NCBI GenBank assembly: GCA_030428885.1
Contig: JAUIEJ010000002.1
Coordinates: 250,501 to 314,500 of the forward strand
Reading direction: 5' to 3'
Length of the DNA: 64,000 nt
From: Gemmatimonadota bacterium
Lineage (GTDB): Bacteria; Gemmatimonadota; Gemmatimonadetes; Longimicrobiales; Gaopeijiaceae
Shown: one piece after another, positions 2,216-58,404 of the stretch
Layout: each line of letters opens with the position of its first letter
Position numbering within the stretch: the stretch's first letter is position 1
Program-made: the position numbers and the translations under genes
Notes under the pieces: model-generated
Databases searched by the model: none
Told to the model about the DNA's origin: nothing
What the model saw: the letters and a program-made list of their open reading frames with translations, nothing else

Positions 2216-4129
2216 TCAGCGAATCGGGCCGTCGCCCTGGGGGACACAGGTGAATCCGGCCGGACGACCGGGGCCTTCGGGCACGATGCCGGTCTCCTCG
2301 TTGGGAGGATAGGGCCGGAAGACCGGCCAGGGGCGCGCGCCCGGGGGCAGTTCCACGAGGCCGGCGTTCTGCACGCACAGCACGTCGTGGCGCCGGACGA
2401 TGCGACCGCCGTCCACCGAGAGGGTGCCCGTGGCCCCGGCGAAGTCGTCCACTTCCTCCAGGGCGGCGGCCACGGCCTGGGGGGAGCGGGCGCCGCTCTC
2501 CAGCACCCGGAGCAGGAGCGAGGCGGCGTCCCACCCGGCGGCCGCGGCGGCGGGGTCGGTGAGGGTGCGCTGGAAGCGCTCTTCGTAGGCGGCCACGAAC
2601 CGGTCGTAGCCCGGACCTCCCCCGGCGGACCGCGGCGTGGCCGTCACCACCCCGTCGGTGTAGCGGGTGCTCACCGCCGAACGCACGCCGGGATCGCCCC
2701 ACGCCGCCGTGCCCATGAGCTGCACACCCAGGGTGTCCAGGGCGTAGAAGGCGGCCTGGGAGGCGATGGCCTGCACGTCCTCGGGGGGAATGGGGAGGAC
2801 CAGGGCGTCGGGCCGGAGGCCCTGGACCGCCTGCATCTGTTCCCGGAAGAAGGTGGCGCCCGGCGCGTAGGTCAGGATCCGGAGCACCGAGCCGCCCAGC
2901 TCCTGGAGCCGGTCGATGAAGATGCGGGCCTCCTCGGCCGAGGGACCGCTGGAGGGGTGGAGCACCACGACCTGATCGAGCCCCACCTCCGAAGCCCAGT
3001 CGGCCAGGGCAAGGGGGGCTCCGGGGTCCACGGAGGCGAGGGAATACACGCCGGTGCCGTCGGGGGGCAACTCGTAGGCCGTGGGCGACACGATGGGCGC
3101 CACCCCGGTCCGGGCCTCGGCGGCGACCCGGACGCCTTCGTCCTGGAGGGGTCCCAGGAATCCCACGGTCCCCCGCCCCACCGCCCCGGCCACCAGGCCG
3201 GCCACGGCCGCGGGATTCCCCTGGTCGTCCAGGAAGTCCACGGTGACGCTCTCGCCCAGGGGCGACTCGGCCACGGCCGCCTCGATGCCCTCCCGTACGC
3301 CCTGGGCGAAGGCCCGGAAGGCGGGCGATCCGCCCAGGGGCAGAATCGCGGCGATCCGTCCCGGCGCCTCGCCGGGAAGCGCCCGGTTCTCCAGGATGGC
3401 CCGGGCCACGGCTTCGTCGTCGCCTCGGGCCCCGGCGTCCACCGCCGCCTGGGCCAGGCGACGGGCACTCTCCACGTCGCCCGCCAGGCGGACCCGCCCG
3501 GCGTAGGCCAGCATGACCGGCACGGCCAGGGGATTGCCCAGGGGAGCCTCCTGGAGAATGGTCCCCAGGCTTTCCCGGTCCAGCTCTTCGGCCACCGATC
3601 GCACCAGGTCGTCGGCCACGCCGCCCTGGGGCACCAGCGCCGGCGGCAGGGCCAGGAGCACCCGCACGGCCTCCGCCGGCCGCCCCGCCTCCGACAACGC
3701 CCGGGCCCGCACCGTGGCCGCGGCGGTCTGGCGATCGTCGTCGGGGGGCAGCACCCGGGCCAGGCGTTCGGCGTGGGTCGTGGCGGCATCCACCTCGCCG
3801 GCGGCGGCCTCGGCCCGGGCCAGGAGCAGCAGGGCATCCACCGACACTCGGGACGCCGGCAGTTCCTCCACCACCGTGGCCGCGGCGGTGCGGGCGTCGT
3901 CGAAGCGCCCGGCGTCGAACGCGCTCCGGGCGCCGGCGAGCAGGCCTGCCGCCCGGGCCTCGGCATCGGCCGAGAGCCGGCCCGGGGCCAGGGTCACCAC
4001 CGGGGGGCCCATGGCGGGTTCGGGCGCGCTTCCCGTGCCCGATGCGCACGCTCCGGCGCCCACGGCCAGGACCGTGACCATCGCGCCGAGGGCGCGGCGG
4101 AATCGGGAGAGGATTGCAGGCTTCACCAT
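2216..4129 (-). CDS. LpoA-like lipoprotein: TPR region plus periplasmic-binding fold
   Basis: The 637-aa product starts with a basic/hydrophobic leader ending in AGAC at about residue 28, a plausible lipoprotein processing site. Residues about 45-260 are Ala/Arg-rich helical repeats that look like TPRs. Residues about 270-610 resemble a type-1 periplasmic-binding (leucine-binding) domain, with [42 protein letters not shown] and [18 protein letters not shown]. This arrangement matches penicillin-binding-protein activator LpoA in Proteobacteria, but an amino-acid ABC substrate-binding role is also possible since no ABC genes adjoin. AGGAG lies 6 bases before the ATG at 4129. The frame extends upstream through the rpsA tail region, but that part is a shadow of S1's acidic codons. 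Confidence 0.75.
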
Positions 4130-54132: not shown

Positions 54133-54177
54133 GGATTCCCCGGTTTGTGAAAGCAGGTGCAAATGCCTTGCGCTCGA

Positions 54178-54207
54178 AACGTACCGGCCCCCGCGAGCGG
54201 GTGTCAA
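54178..54207 (-). promoter_or_regulatory. nuo operon promoter
   Basis: Minus strand TTGACA (54207-54202), 18-base spacer, TACGTT (54183-54178). Predicted start near 54171, leaving about 40 bases before nuoA. The perfect -35 is the strongest in the window. Confidence 0.7.
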
Positions 54208-54336: not shown

Positions 54337-54891
54337 ATGCCCATCAAGAGCGATCGCTGGATCCGCAGGATGTCCGAAGACCACGGAATGATCGAGCCGT
54401 TCGAGGCCGGCCAGGTGCGGGACGGGTGCATCAGCTACGGGCTGTCGTCGTACGGCTACGACATCCGGGTGAGCCCCGAATTCAAGGTCTTCACCAACGT
54501 CCACAACGTGGTGGTCGACCCAAAGAACTTCGACGACCGCTCCTTCGTGGACGTGAACGCCAGCGAGTGCATCATTCCCCCCAACTCCTTCGCCCTGGCC
54601 CGGACCCTGGAATACTTCCGGGTGCCCCGGGACGTCCTGGTGGTCTGTGTGGGGAAAAGCACCTACGCCCGCTGCGGCATCATCGTCAACGTGACCCCGC
54701 TGGAGCCCACCTGGGAGGGCTACCTCACCCTGGAGATCAGCAACACGACCCCCCTCCCCGCCAAGATCTACGCCGGCGAGGGCATCGCCCAGTTGCTCTT
54801 CTTCGAGGGCGACGAGCCGCCCGAGACGGCCTACGCGGATCGGAAGGGGAAGTACATGAACCAAGTGGGGGTGACGCTGCCGAAGATGTAG
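54337..54891 (+). CDS. dcd: dCTP deaminase
   Basis: Deaminates dCTP to dUTP for thymidylate supply. The 184-aa protein has the family core [19 protein letters not shown] with the catalytic Arg, [30 protein letters not shown] with the active Glu (piece [19 protein letters not shown]), and the C-terminal [12 protein letters not shown] that closes the neighbouring active site. The single-function form is more likely than the bifunctional one, but this was not tested. Confidence 0.95.
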
Positions 54892-54900
54892 GCAGGGGCG

Positions 54901-54990
54901 GGTTCACGCCGGCGTGCGCCTCCCCTCGCGCCGGCGCTTCGCTCACCTTCGGTGACCGTCGCTCCGGGGAGGCGCACGTCGACGCGAACC
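54901..54990. repeat. Long imperfect inverted repeat after dcd
   Basis: Arms of 25 bases (54901-54925 and 54966-54990) pair with three mismatches; the inner 12 bp (GTGCGCCTCCCC with GGGGAGGCGCAC) are perfect. The 40-base loop holds a smaller TCACC-TTC-GGTGA hairpin. It begins 9 bases after the dcd stop and may end dcd transcription, or be a REP-like mobile palindrome. Confidence 0.7.
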
Positions 54991-55170
54991 CTTCCGGGCC
55001 GACGATCTCGGGCGCGTTTGGAGGGGCGATCAACCCTTCCGGGCCGGCGGGGCTTTCCGAACGCCCCCAACTCTCCACAACGGCCCGATGCCGATTCGTT
55101 CGGTCCGTTTGGGGGCGCCATACCGCACGAAGTCGACCCTGCCGGCGAGCGCACCGACAAGTGTGGAGGA

Positions 55171-55194
55171 TTGGGGGCGCCCCAGCGCCCCCAA
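55171..55194. repeat. Perfect palindrome in the spacer
   Basis: TTGGGGGCGC and its complement (10 bp) around the 4-base loop CCCA. Two of the five TTGGGGGCG copies form this hairpin. Confidence 0.6.
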
Positions 55195-55283
55195 ATCGAC
55201 ATTTCGCCGGCCGCCGGGCCGGCGTGGAAACTTGGGGGCGTGCCGGGGCCGCGCTCCGCCGTTCGAAACGCCGGGCCCGCGGA

Positions 55284-57971
55284 TCAGCGCCCGCCCTCTC
55301 GCAGCGAAGTAGCCGGATCCACCGCGGCGGCTCTCCGGGCCGGGATCCAGGTGGCGATCGTGGCCACGAGGCCCAGAGCGACGGCGCCGACCGCGAATGT
55401 CGGCGGATCGAAGGGCTCGACGCCGAACAGCACCACGTCCAACACCCGCGTCAGGGCCGCCGCGCCCACCAGACCCACCGCCAGTCCCACGGCCACGAAC
55501 AGGGACGCCTGCCGAAGTACCATGCCGCGCACCTCCCGGGCTTCGGCGCCCATGGCCATCCGGACCCCGATCTCGGGAGTGCGCCGGCTCACGGTGTACG
55601 AGACGACGCCGTAGATGCCCACACACCCCAGGACCACGGCCACCAGGCCGGCACCCGACAACAGGACCATGGCGAAAGCCGTGGGCGCCCGGGCCTCGTC
55701 CATCACGTCGCCGAGGGTTCCCAGATTGGCCACGGGCACGTCGGGCGCCTGCTCCCGGACCGCCTCTCGCACGGCGGCCGCCAGGCTCGCCGGCGGAACG
55801 CCGGTGTGCACCACGAAGCCCAGGGTGTGGGGCGGAGCGCTGTAGGCATACGGCCCCAGGAAGGAGAGGTAGAGGGTTTCGGGCGGAGGATCCACCAGTT
55901 CGTGCGAACGGATGTCGCCCACCACCCCCACCACCGTGTAGGGTTCATCGTGGGGCAGATCGGGGTGGATCCGCCGACCCAGGGCACTCCGTCCGGGCCA
56001 CAGACGTTCAGCCAGGGCGTGGCTGATCACGGCGGCGTGGGGGTCCCGGAAGGGGTCGTCGAGGTCGAACGTCCGACCCTCCACCACCGGCACCCCCAGG
56101 GCCTCGAGGTACCCGGCGGTCACGCCCAGGACGTCCACCGAGGGCGGCGTCTGCCCTTCCACGACCGGCTGGTCGTCGGCGTACACGGGCGTGTCGTTGC
56201 GGCACCCGGTTAGCGGAAGGCACACGCCGGCCCCCACCGCCTCCACACCGGGAAGCCGGCCCACGGCCGCGACGATGTCCTGCTGCATGCGGAGCGCGTC
56301 GGTGGGATCGGGCACCAGCGCTCGGGGAAGACCCACCTGAAACACCAGGGCCGAGCCGGACTGGAAGCCGGCGTCCACGCTCCGCACCGCCCAGTACGTC
56401 CGGACCAGGAGCCCCGACCCCACCAGAAGCATCAAGGCCAGGGCGACCTGCACCGAGACGAGGCCGTTGCGGAGCCCCCAACGGGAGAGACCGGCGGTCG
56501 TGCCCCGCCCGGCCCGGGCAAGGGTCGGCCCGGCCGCCGCGCCACGCCGCACCAACGGGAGCAGTCCGATGCCCAGGCCGCAGACCGCGGCCAGGCCGTA
56601 CGTGAGAACGACCGTCAGGGGTTCCAGGCCGATTTCGTGGAGCCGGGGAAGCGCCTCGGGCCCGGTCCGCACGACCCACCGTACGGTGGCCCAGGCACCG
56701 ACCAGGCCCAGGGTGCCGGCCAGGAGTCCCAGAACCAGGGCCTCGGACAGATGATGACGCACGATGGCCCCGCGACCGGCCCCGAGGGCAGCCCGAATCT
56801 CGACCTCCTGACGCTGCGACTCCGCCCGCACCAAGAAGAGGTTGGCCACGTTGGCAGCGGCAATGGCAAGGACGAGAAGGACCGTGCCCAGGAGGACCCA
56901 CAGGGTCTGACGCGTCGAGCCCACCACCGTCTCCTTCAGCGGGCGCACGAGAGGGGTGAGCCCTCCGCCGGTGACCAGGAGATCGAAGGCTGCAGGGTTG
57001 AAGCGCGCCTCCAGCCCGGGCACCAGGCTCTCGAGGTCGGCCTGGGCCCGTTCGGGGCTGATCCCGTCACGGAGGCGGGCGATTCCTGCCCGACCGAAGC
57101 CTCCCAGGATCACCCGCTCGGGGTCGATCTGATGGGGAAGCCAGACCTGGGTCTCGTCGGAGGGGACGTCGAACCCGGGGGGAAGCACGCCCACGATTTC
57201 CGTGGGGCGCCCGTCGATGGAGACGGCCCGTCCGATGATACCCGGGTCCCCTCCGAATCGGCTCTGCCACAGCGCCGCGCCGATGACCGCGACGAGGGGC
57301 GCGCCGGGGCGCTGATCCGCCTCGGCGATGGTCCGGCCCAGAATCGGCGGTGCGTCGAGAAGCAGCACGAAGAACCCCGATCCCACCCGCACCCCCGGGA
57401 CCCGGAGCGGGGAGTCGACCCCCACCACCGAAACGGCCCCCTCCTGGTAGAGGGTGATGTCGTCGAGGGTCTGGTTGAGCTCCCGGTAGTGTACGTAGGT
57501 GCCCAGCGACACCCCCATGAGGGGCAGGCCCGCCCCGTCCGCGCGGTGCTGCACCGCCACCAGGCGATCCGCCTCGGGATACGGCAGCGGATTCAACACC
57601 ACTCCCTTCACCAGGGTGAACATGGCGGCGGTGCCCCCGATGCCAAGCGCGAGGGACACCAGGGCCGCCCCGGTGAAGCCCGGAGCACGCCGGAGTCTTC
57701 GGAGGCCGTGGCGCAGGTCCCGCCCCCAACCGCCCTCGCCCCCCCGACCGAGCACCGCCCGCCCTCTCTCCACGAGGCCGAGGGCCAGGTGCTGAGCTCC
57801 GGTGCGAAGCAGGAGGCGGGTCACGGCCACTGGGCCCGAGCCGCGGGCTTCCTCCAATTCCTGCCGGAAGACGTGCCGCATGCCCGTGCCGAACCGGGCC
57901 CGGAAGGCTCGGGGGTAGAGCCGGAGCAGGTGTTCGTGGAGCCGGACGAGTCCATCGCGTTCCGCGCTCAT
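55284..57971 (-). CDS. ADOP-type ABC transporter permease (MacB/FtsX-like)
   Basis: The 895-aa protein starts with a charged segment (residues 1-70) found in the ADOP group of orphan permeases of Acidobacteria and Gemmatimonadota. It then shows two FtsX permease units, each a transmembrane helix, a MacB-like periplasmic domain (FYVLLLDAPPILGRTIAEADQ-like; SALGRRIHPDLPHDEPYTVVGVVGD, pieces here) and a three-helix block: near residues 370-470 with VLAIAAANVANLFLVR, and near 775-880 with GCVGIYGVVSYTVSRRTPEIGVRMAMGA. ADOP proteins usually lack an adjacent ATPase, and none is here. Function is probably macrolide/peptide or lipoprotein-linked efflux; not known. It overlaps PadR by 4 bases. Confidence 0.88.
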   Translation of the reverse strand: MSAERDGLVRLHEHLLRLYPRAFRARFGTGMRHVFRQELEEARGSGPVAVTRLLLRTGAQHLALGLVERGRAVLGRGGEGGWGRDLRHGLRRLRRAPGFTGAALVSLALGIGGTAAMFTLVKGVVLNPLPYPEADRLVAVQHRADGAGLPLMGVSLGTYVHYRELNQTLDDITLYQEGAVSVVGVDSPLRVPGVRVGSGFFVLLLDAPPILGRTIAEADQRPGAPLVAVIGAALWQSRFGGDPGIIGRAVSIDGRPTEIVGVLPPGFDVPSDETQVWLPHQIDPERVILGGFGRAGIARLRDGISPERAQADLESLVPGLEARFNPAAFDLLVTGGGLTPLVRPLKETVVGSTRQTLWVLLGTVLLVLAIAAANVANLFLVRAESQRQEVEIRAALGAGRGAIVRHHLSEALVLGLLAGTLGLVGAWATVRWVVRTGPEALPRLHEIGLEPLTVVLTYGLAAVCGLGIGLLPLVRRGAAAGPTLARAGRGTTAGLSRWGLRNGLVSVQVALALMLLVGSGLLVRTYWAVRSVDAGFQSGSALVFQVGLPRALVPDPTDALRMQQDIVAAVGRLPGVEAVGAGVCLPLTGCRNDTPVYADDQPVVEGQTPPSVDVLGVTAGYLEALGVPVVEGRTFDLDDPFRDPHAAVISHALAERLWPGRSALGRRIHPDLPHDEPYTVVGVVGDIRSHELVDPPPETLYLSFLGPYAYSAPPHTLGFVVHTGVPPASLAAAVREAVREQAPDVPVANLGTLGDVMDEARAPTAFAMVLLSGAGLVAVVLGCVGIYGVVSYTVSRRTPEIGVRMAMGAEAREVRGMVLRQASLFVAVGLAVGLVGAAALTRVLDVVLFGVEPFDPPTFAVGAVALGLVATIATWIPARRAAAVDPATSLREGGR

Positions 57972-58330
57972 GGGGCCTCTCCCGGCGAGGTAAGCCCCAG
58001 TTCGCCGGTGGCGGCGAGGAGGGTGCGGAGGCGGGTGGCCTCGGCCGCTGCCACCGCCCGACCCCGGGCCGTGATGCGGTAGTAGGCCCCTCGGCGGGGA
58101 TCGTCTTCGGCGGGTCGATGGTCGGATTCCTCGACCCAACCGAGGTCCAGGAGCTTCCGGAGGTGGCGGTACAGGGGCCCCGTCTGGAGGCGAATCCGTT
58201 CCGCGGACCGCACGCGCACCTCCAGCACGATGCCGTAGCCGTGGCGAGGCTCCTCCAGGAGGGCGAGGAGAATGTGAAAGACCACCGCCTTCAAGGGCAG
58301 GTGGCGTTCGATGTCGTCGCGATGGCTCAC
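57968..58330 (-). CDS. PadR-family transcriptional regulator
   Basis: The 120-aa winged-helix protein has LKAVVFHILLALLEEPRHGYGIVLEV, the recognition region LQTGPLYRHLRKLLDLGWVEES and GAYYRITARGRAVAAAE, all PadR family. The GTG at 58330 has GGAGG eight bases upstream and is preferred to a TTG at 58372. It is co-translated with the ADOP permease, the usual PadR-ADOP pair, and should repress it from the tandem palindromes just upstream. Confidence 0.92.
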   Translation of the reverse strand: MSHRDDIERHLPLKAVVFHILLALLEEPRHGYGIVLEVRVRSAERIRLQTGPLYRHLRKLLDLGWVEESDHRPAEDDPRRGAYYRITARGRAVAAAEATRLRTLLAATGELGLTSPGEAP

Positions 58331-58376
58331 GAGGTCGGCCTCCGGTACGCGGCTCGGAACGACCGCGTTCAATTAG

Positions 58377-58404
58377 GTACGTTTCGTACCTGTACGATTC
58401 GTAC
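58377..58404. promoter_or_regulatory. Tandem palindromic operator of the PadR-ADOP operon
   Basis: Two 13-base palindromes, GTACGTTTCGTAC (58377-58389) and GTACGATTCGTAC (58392-58404), differ by one base and repeat every 15 bases. They sit 47-74 bases before the PadR GTG, with a possible TTGAAA -35 at 58420-58415 upstream, so a bound dimer pair would cover the core promoter. Confidence 0.65.

Follow-up and report, generated by a model that had tools for sequence, protein, structure and literature searches.

A dispersed 188-bp array of alternating boxes, private to one Gemmatimonadota lineage, resembles BIMEs in arrangement and habitat

The spacer studied here separates two convergent genes, dcd (54337-54891, plus strand), coding for a dCTP deaminase-like protein, and an ADOP-type permease gene (55284-58139, minus strand). 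Both lie in the window, the whole stretch of 64,000 nucleotides that was analysed (G000:C8:250501-314500). Its genome, G000, is a draft of 5.39 Mb in 23 contigs, 95% complete, and we compared it with five unevenly sampled congeners (G001 to G005). Relatives of the dcd product share 72-95% amino acid identity, the closest Dcd proteins among GTDB species genomes being those of Gemmatimonadota MAGs. On either strand the spacer folds better than shuffled versions of itself (z -4.1 and -5.0). The original prediction had described it as a single palindrome cluster combining a 90-base imperfect inverted repeat, a direct repeat with a 45-base period and five copies of TTGGGGGCG. All of these are present, but they do not form one feature: the 90-base hairpin is distinct from the TTGGGGGCG cluster.

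The arms of the inverted repeat fall within 54874-54925 and 54966-55017, and the hairpin (54899-54990, plus strand) has a long GC-rich stem and a conserved tip, GCTTCGCTCACCTTCGGTGACCGTC. This tip occurs exactly once each in G000, G001 and G004, always just after dcd. The hairpin is a feature of dcd and no part of the dispersed repeat described below; with one copy per genome it was ruled out as a second dispersed repeat. In the congeners it lies at L105:2053-2150 (G001) and L106:2053-2165. Between G000, G001 and G004 the stems are unrelated in sequence while their complementarity is kept, and the tip is near-identical; this dcd 3' structure has been preserved in the three congeners through compensatory change. 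In G003, G005 and the more distant relatives examined it was not found after dcd; for G002 only 61 bases downstream of dcd were available. Does it serve 3' end stability, or the regulation of dcd? Long hairpins whose tip, GCGCTKCGCTTC...CCGTCTCC, is related also occur next to genes other than dcd in G000 and G004 (L041:2384-2413 and 3196-3225; near concatenated positions 291936 and 293859 of the L338-L357 sample of G004) and may form a second class of 3'-end hairpins. Next to the dcd hairpin, the predicted 45-base-period repeat is also there, with AACCCTTCCGGGCCG at 54987 and 55032 (54987-55049 in all). It carries weak box-like matches at 54992 and 55037 and is possibly, though uncertainly, a decayed half-element.

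The remainder of the spacer holds the five predicted copies of TTGGGGGCG, at 55062 (minus), 55109 (plus), 55171 (plus), 55186 (minus) and 55232 (plus). The window contains six in total where 1.7 are expected, and five within 392 bases corresponds to a Poisson P of ~1e-12. Searching the genome with its own spacer, the check that had been proposed, returned many intergenic copies of the same extent: more than 30 similar places at E < 1e-5, matching query positions ~148-381 (window ~55039-55272) and not the first 147 bases. A covariance model built on 20 copies then located 42 full-length copies, spread over 25 loci of G000, and one more that a contig end cuts short. The window copy occupies 55055-55241 on the plus strand (157.7 bits). 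Seven or eight of the loci carry tandem arrays. Some arrays sit at contig ends (G000:C23:1-600 and C19:65458-65572), which makes it probable that more copies lie hidden in assembly gaps.

Each 188-bp element consists of six copies of one ~16-bp motif with consensus CCAANTCTCCMCAAC, arranged so that box A faces B1, B2 faces C1 and C2 faces D. Their orientation thus alternates + - + - + -, and across the family the box centres are 30-32 bp apart. A weight matrix trained without the window copy recovered all six boxes there, with centre spacings of 30, 31, 31, 32 and 29 bp: A (CCAACTCTCCACAACG, 55067-55082, plus, 20.7 bits), B1 (CCAAACGGACCGAACG, 55097-55112, minus, 13.0 bits), B2 (CGAAGTCGACCCTGCC, 55128-55143, plus, 9.7 bits), C1 (CCAATCCTCCACACTT, 55159-55174, minus, 16.5 bits), C2 (CCAAATCGACATTTCG, a variant with a conserved GACA, 55191-55206, plus, 12.8 bits) and D (CCAAGTTTCCACGCCG, 55220-55235, minus, 14.4 bits). 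The consensus is not palindromic, and palindromes arise only where boxes abut, namely core palindrome B (TTGGGGGCGCCATACCGCACGAA, 55109-55131) and core palindrome C (TTGGGGGCGCCCCAGCGCCCCCAA, 55171-55194), the latter better conserved than any other part of the family. The five copies of TTGGGGGCG are real but belong to a six-box lattice instead of standing in isolation: TTGGGGGCG combines a box's outer edge with the core lying between boxes that abut, and its two orientations reflect those of the boxes. Likewise the GTGGA boxes noted around 55062 (minus), 55163 and 55223 correspond to boxes A, C1 and D.

Among 26 aligned locus representatives mean identity was 57% (range 40-83%) and gaps filled 71 of 5460 cells; boxes were 63% identical and spacers 43%. 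In the array on contig C13 the lattice continues with a 124-bp, four-box period. Boxes B1 and D resemble each other within copies, which suggests that local duplication has acted as well, and some distant loci have similar spacers (83% between C23 and C11, 78% between C1 and C8), which indicates copying between loci. At L046:2509-3395 (C1:53509-54392) a short ORF with a signal-peptide-like start sits between two near-identical elements, like a duplicated cassette. Separately, CGAAACGTACC occurs at 54174-54190, near nuoA and dcd, and at 58370-58386, upstream of the PadR-type gene that adjoins the ADOP permease gene, and again in boxes B1/B2 of the C18:308386 copy; it is possibly a PadR operator, or chance. 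DnaA boxes were considered for TCATCCACA in C1, which is near TTATCCACA, and dropped as the other boxes do not fit.

The copies are placed selectively. With flanking genes called by a GC3 rule and classes in G000 resting on Pfam-supported neighbours, some loci stayed unclassified; of the 17 classifiable ones about 12 were convergent, 5 codirectional and none divergent. Against a background of 52:140:61 (convergent:codirectional:divergent), taken from one congener sample, this gives a binomial P of ~1e-5. The nearest stop codon is often 4-45 bp away and the neighbours are ordinary genes. Several orthologous sites are empty in congeners, in a search that left out the left flank of L052 and both flanks of L044. 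The pyrC-rpsT spacer is short and element-free in G001, G002, G004 and G005, the terminator beside the G000 element being common to three of these four; G001 and G002 also lack the element in the DctP-yhbY spacer, and G001 lacks it at the Aldedh site. Such sites could in principle be losses instead of gains.

The family is absent from the five congeners and from all other genomes of the order that were searched. A search of the order with the R1 model hit the genome of origin only; R1 misses the families of G001 and G004 described next, so that it bounds the sequence and not the architecture. Exact scans for the core in GTDB and IMG/VR, which may omit the genome of origin, returned none. At least two sister species nevertheless have elements of this geometry. 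G001 has a private family of its own, with 56 matches in that genome and none in G000. Its unit is also 188 bp long and has six boxes in the same alternation, with 61-62 bp per inverted pair and variable tips; 17 independent copies are 62% identical with a single gap cell in 3196. Its boxes, which read CGCTACGCNGSGTCGCAGTCG from core to tip, bear no relation to those of G000, and the G000 matrix does not detect them. Automatic classification of 13 of its loci gave 7 convergent, 6 codirectional and no divergent, and pooling both species showed enrichment of convergent spacers (P ~4e-7) and absence of divergent ones (P ~3e-4). In G001 a five-unit array of this family follows the dcd hairpin (L105:2190-3552), and the two species therefore carry different private families at the same spot. 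G004 has a third family, with three copies in a 360-kb sample, in which boxes of like orientation are 60-61 bp apart. AAGTCTCCAC is common to the boxes of this family (GACCACAAGTCTCCACGAT) and to many G000 boxes, and the G000 matrix detects some of the former. De novo family searches covered samples of G003 (800 kb) and G005 (259 kb), not G002, and no family was seen in either; de novo matches in G003 were ruled out as a repeat family, being cold-shock genes. The genomes with arrays, G000, G001 and G004, are the same three that have the dcd hairpin.

If base pairing were under selection, whether in RNA or in single-stranded DNA, facing boxes should co-vary, and in most tests they did not. Column-pair statistics put pairing of the paired columns at expectation, and the RNAalifold consensus supported the C core hairpin alone. 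Adjacent boxes were no more alike within than between copies, C2-D being marginal (P 0.045). First swap tests were not significant; repeated with 26 copies, one stem was: for B2 plus tip2 against tip3 plus D within-copy pairing beat that of swapped copies (P 0.0006-0.004), a result that would suit a folded single strand. In G001 the variable tip bases of facing boxes were complementary in 7 of 17 copies by manual count, where 9.8 are expected by chance. These tip counts fit separate protein sites better than base pairing.

Taken together, our results make it fairly probable that 55055-55241 is one copy of an intergenic element, dispersed in the genome and private to the lineage, that functions in the manner of a BIME and forms a phased array of putative protein sites. 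A sequence-specific DNA-binding protein would occupy the six boxes cooperatively along one face of the double helix: the ~31-bp pitch, approximately three helical turns, would bring the boxes onto that face, and occupancy would explain why the boxes hold their sequence and spacing although the spacers between them drift. The elements would have spread by a transposase or a copying process other than a Y1/RAYT enzyme. That sister species retain the geometry and change the boxes suggests, as far as sequence comparison goes, that the boxes co-evolve with the putative protein. For the host, the analogy with BIMEs leads us to guess at a nucleoprotein block or a supercoil buffer where transcription units converge. 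A broader proposal, to which we give slightly less than an even chance, is that these are geometry-conserved, sequence-private intergenic arrays of one genus-level Gemmatimonadota clade. Their box sequence would be replaced genome-wide, presumably in step with a putative protein that binds DNA or mobilises the arrays, evolves fast and is not related to RAYTs, while the 188-bp six-box lattice is kept at a few dozen loci per species.

Several other explanations were weighed. The elements could be orphan REP or REPIN-type repeats, single-stranded hairpins whose movement depended on a RAYT (Y1 HuH) transposase before that enzyme was lost. The spaced alternating units, the tandem clusters and the placement at 3' ends and in convergent spacers match REPs and BIMEs, the folds are stable (z -4.1 and -5.0), CGTC-type REPs are likewise without a dedicated transposase, and Y1_Tnp is found in 20 of 146 genomes of the order. 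However Y1_Tnp (PF01797) was not found in the 95% complete G000 nor in any of the five congeners by a search that does detect it in control genomes. The boxes, moreover, are non-palindromic and six to a unit, facing boxes do not vary as pairs, and the loci are just 57% identical. We consider this origin unlikely. A MITE-like origin, in which a DDE transposon or one of another type had several transposase-binding boxes at its ends and the elements were its non-autonomous derivatives, would agree with the discrete 188-bp unit, with the partial inverted ends CTTTCCGAACG...CGTTCGGAAAG of some copies and with the empty orthologous sites. Yet the immediate neighbours of copies tested with Pfam included no transposase, comparison of the flanks gave neither a constant target duplication nor a sharp end, and the 124-bp arrays extend the lattice without ends, leaving this reading quite improbable.

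A structured RNA, which the original prediction had also offered, or a terminator in 3' untranslated regions would fit the fold z-scores (-4.1 and -5.0), the location after stop codons and the weak B2-D pairing signal, the one within-copy duplex test in its favour. Against it, Rfam scans gave no match at the gathering threshold and a single sub-threshold one in the window, co-variation did not extend beyond the core hairpin and column pairing stayed at expectation. Facing boxes behaved independently, and at pyrC-rpsT a separate terminator, common to congeners, adjoins the element. We regard it as very unlikely. Integron attC sites also combine conserved boxes with variable stems, but they were dropped since the boxes generally fail the R''/R' consensus. 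The copies here also differ in being dispersed over contigs at 25 loci, beside ordinary genes.

The favoured reading, a phased array of putative protein sites, leaves the REP/BIME-like array of the original prediction mostly right: copies of the same extent in intergenic spacers, tandem arrays and gene 3' ends all bear it out, whereas membership of the REP family proper does not hold, there being no Y1/RAYT and no palindromic boxes. No description of intergenic repeats in Gemmatimonadota was found in the literature searched. In a BIME, REPs follow one another at regular intervals with their orientation alternating, and REPs are found in the spacers of convergent and codirectional genes, frequently no more than 20 bp from a stop codon (PMC2817692, PMC3733652). 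The element is similarly dispersed and extragenic, with regularly spaced alternating units, clusters and a preference for gene 3' ends and convergent spacers. It differs in that its units are non-palindromic ~16-bp boxes at a ~31-bp pitch in a fixed six-box unit, whereas a REP unit is a palindrome of 20-40 bp tagged at one end, and our alignments contain no GTAG/CGTC tag. It occupies 25 loci, not hundreds, its spacers are unconserved, and RAYT, the partner of REPs, is missing from its genome. With REPINs, the REP doublets (PMC3116915), it shares inverted pairs as a unit and near-identical tandem clusters, but it has three such pairs per unit and, again, no RAYT in the genome. CGTC REPs are also a family without a dedicated transposase; those are short single palindromes with a CGTC tag.

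The element thus works like a BIME but is not filed as one, because Y1_Tnp is lacking and the units are not tagged palindromes; by analogy it looks like a fast-evolving relative of REP/BIME repeats. The biology of REPs and BIMEs rests on palindromes and RAYT, and co-evolution of REPINs with RAYTs has been proposed (PMC3116915). Here the same habitat, 3' ends and convergent genes, is shared without RAYT, and a rigid geometry is kept while the recognition sequence changes between sister species. Two questions thereby become testable, namely what reads such lattices, and how dozens of sites switch their recognition sequence together.
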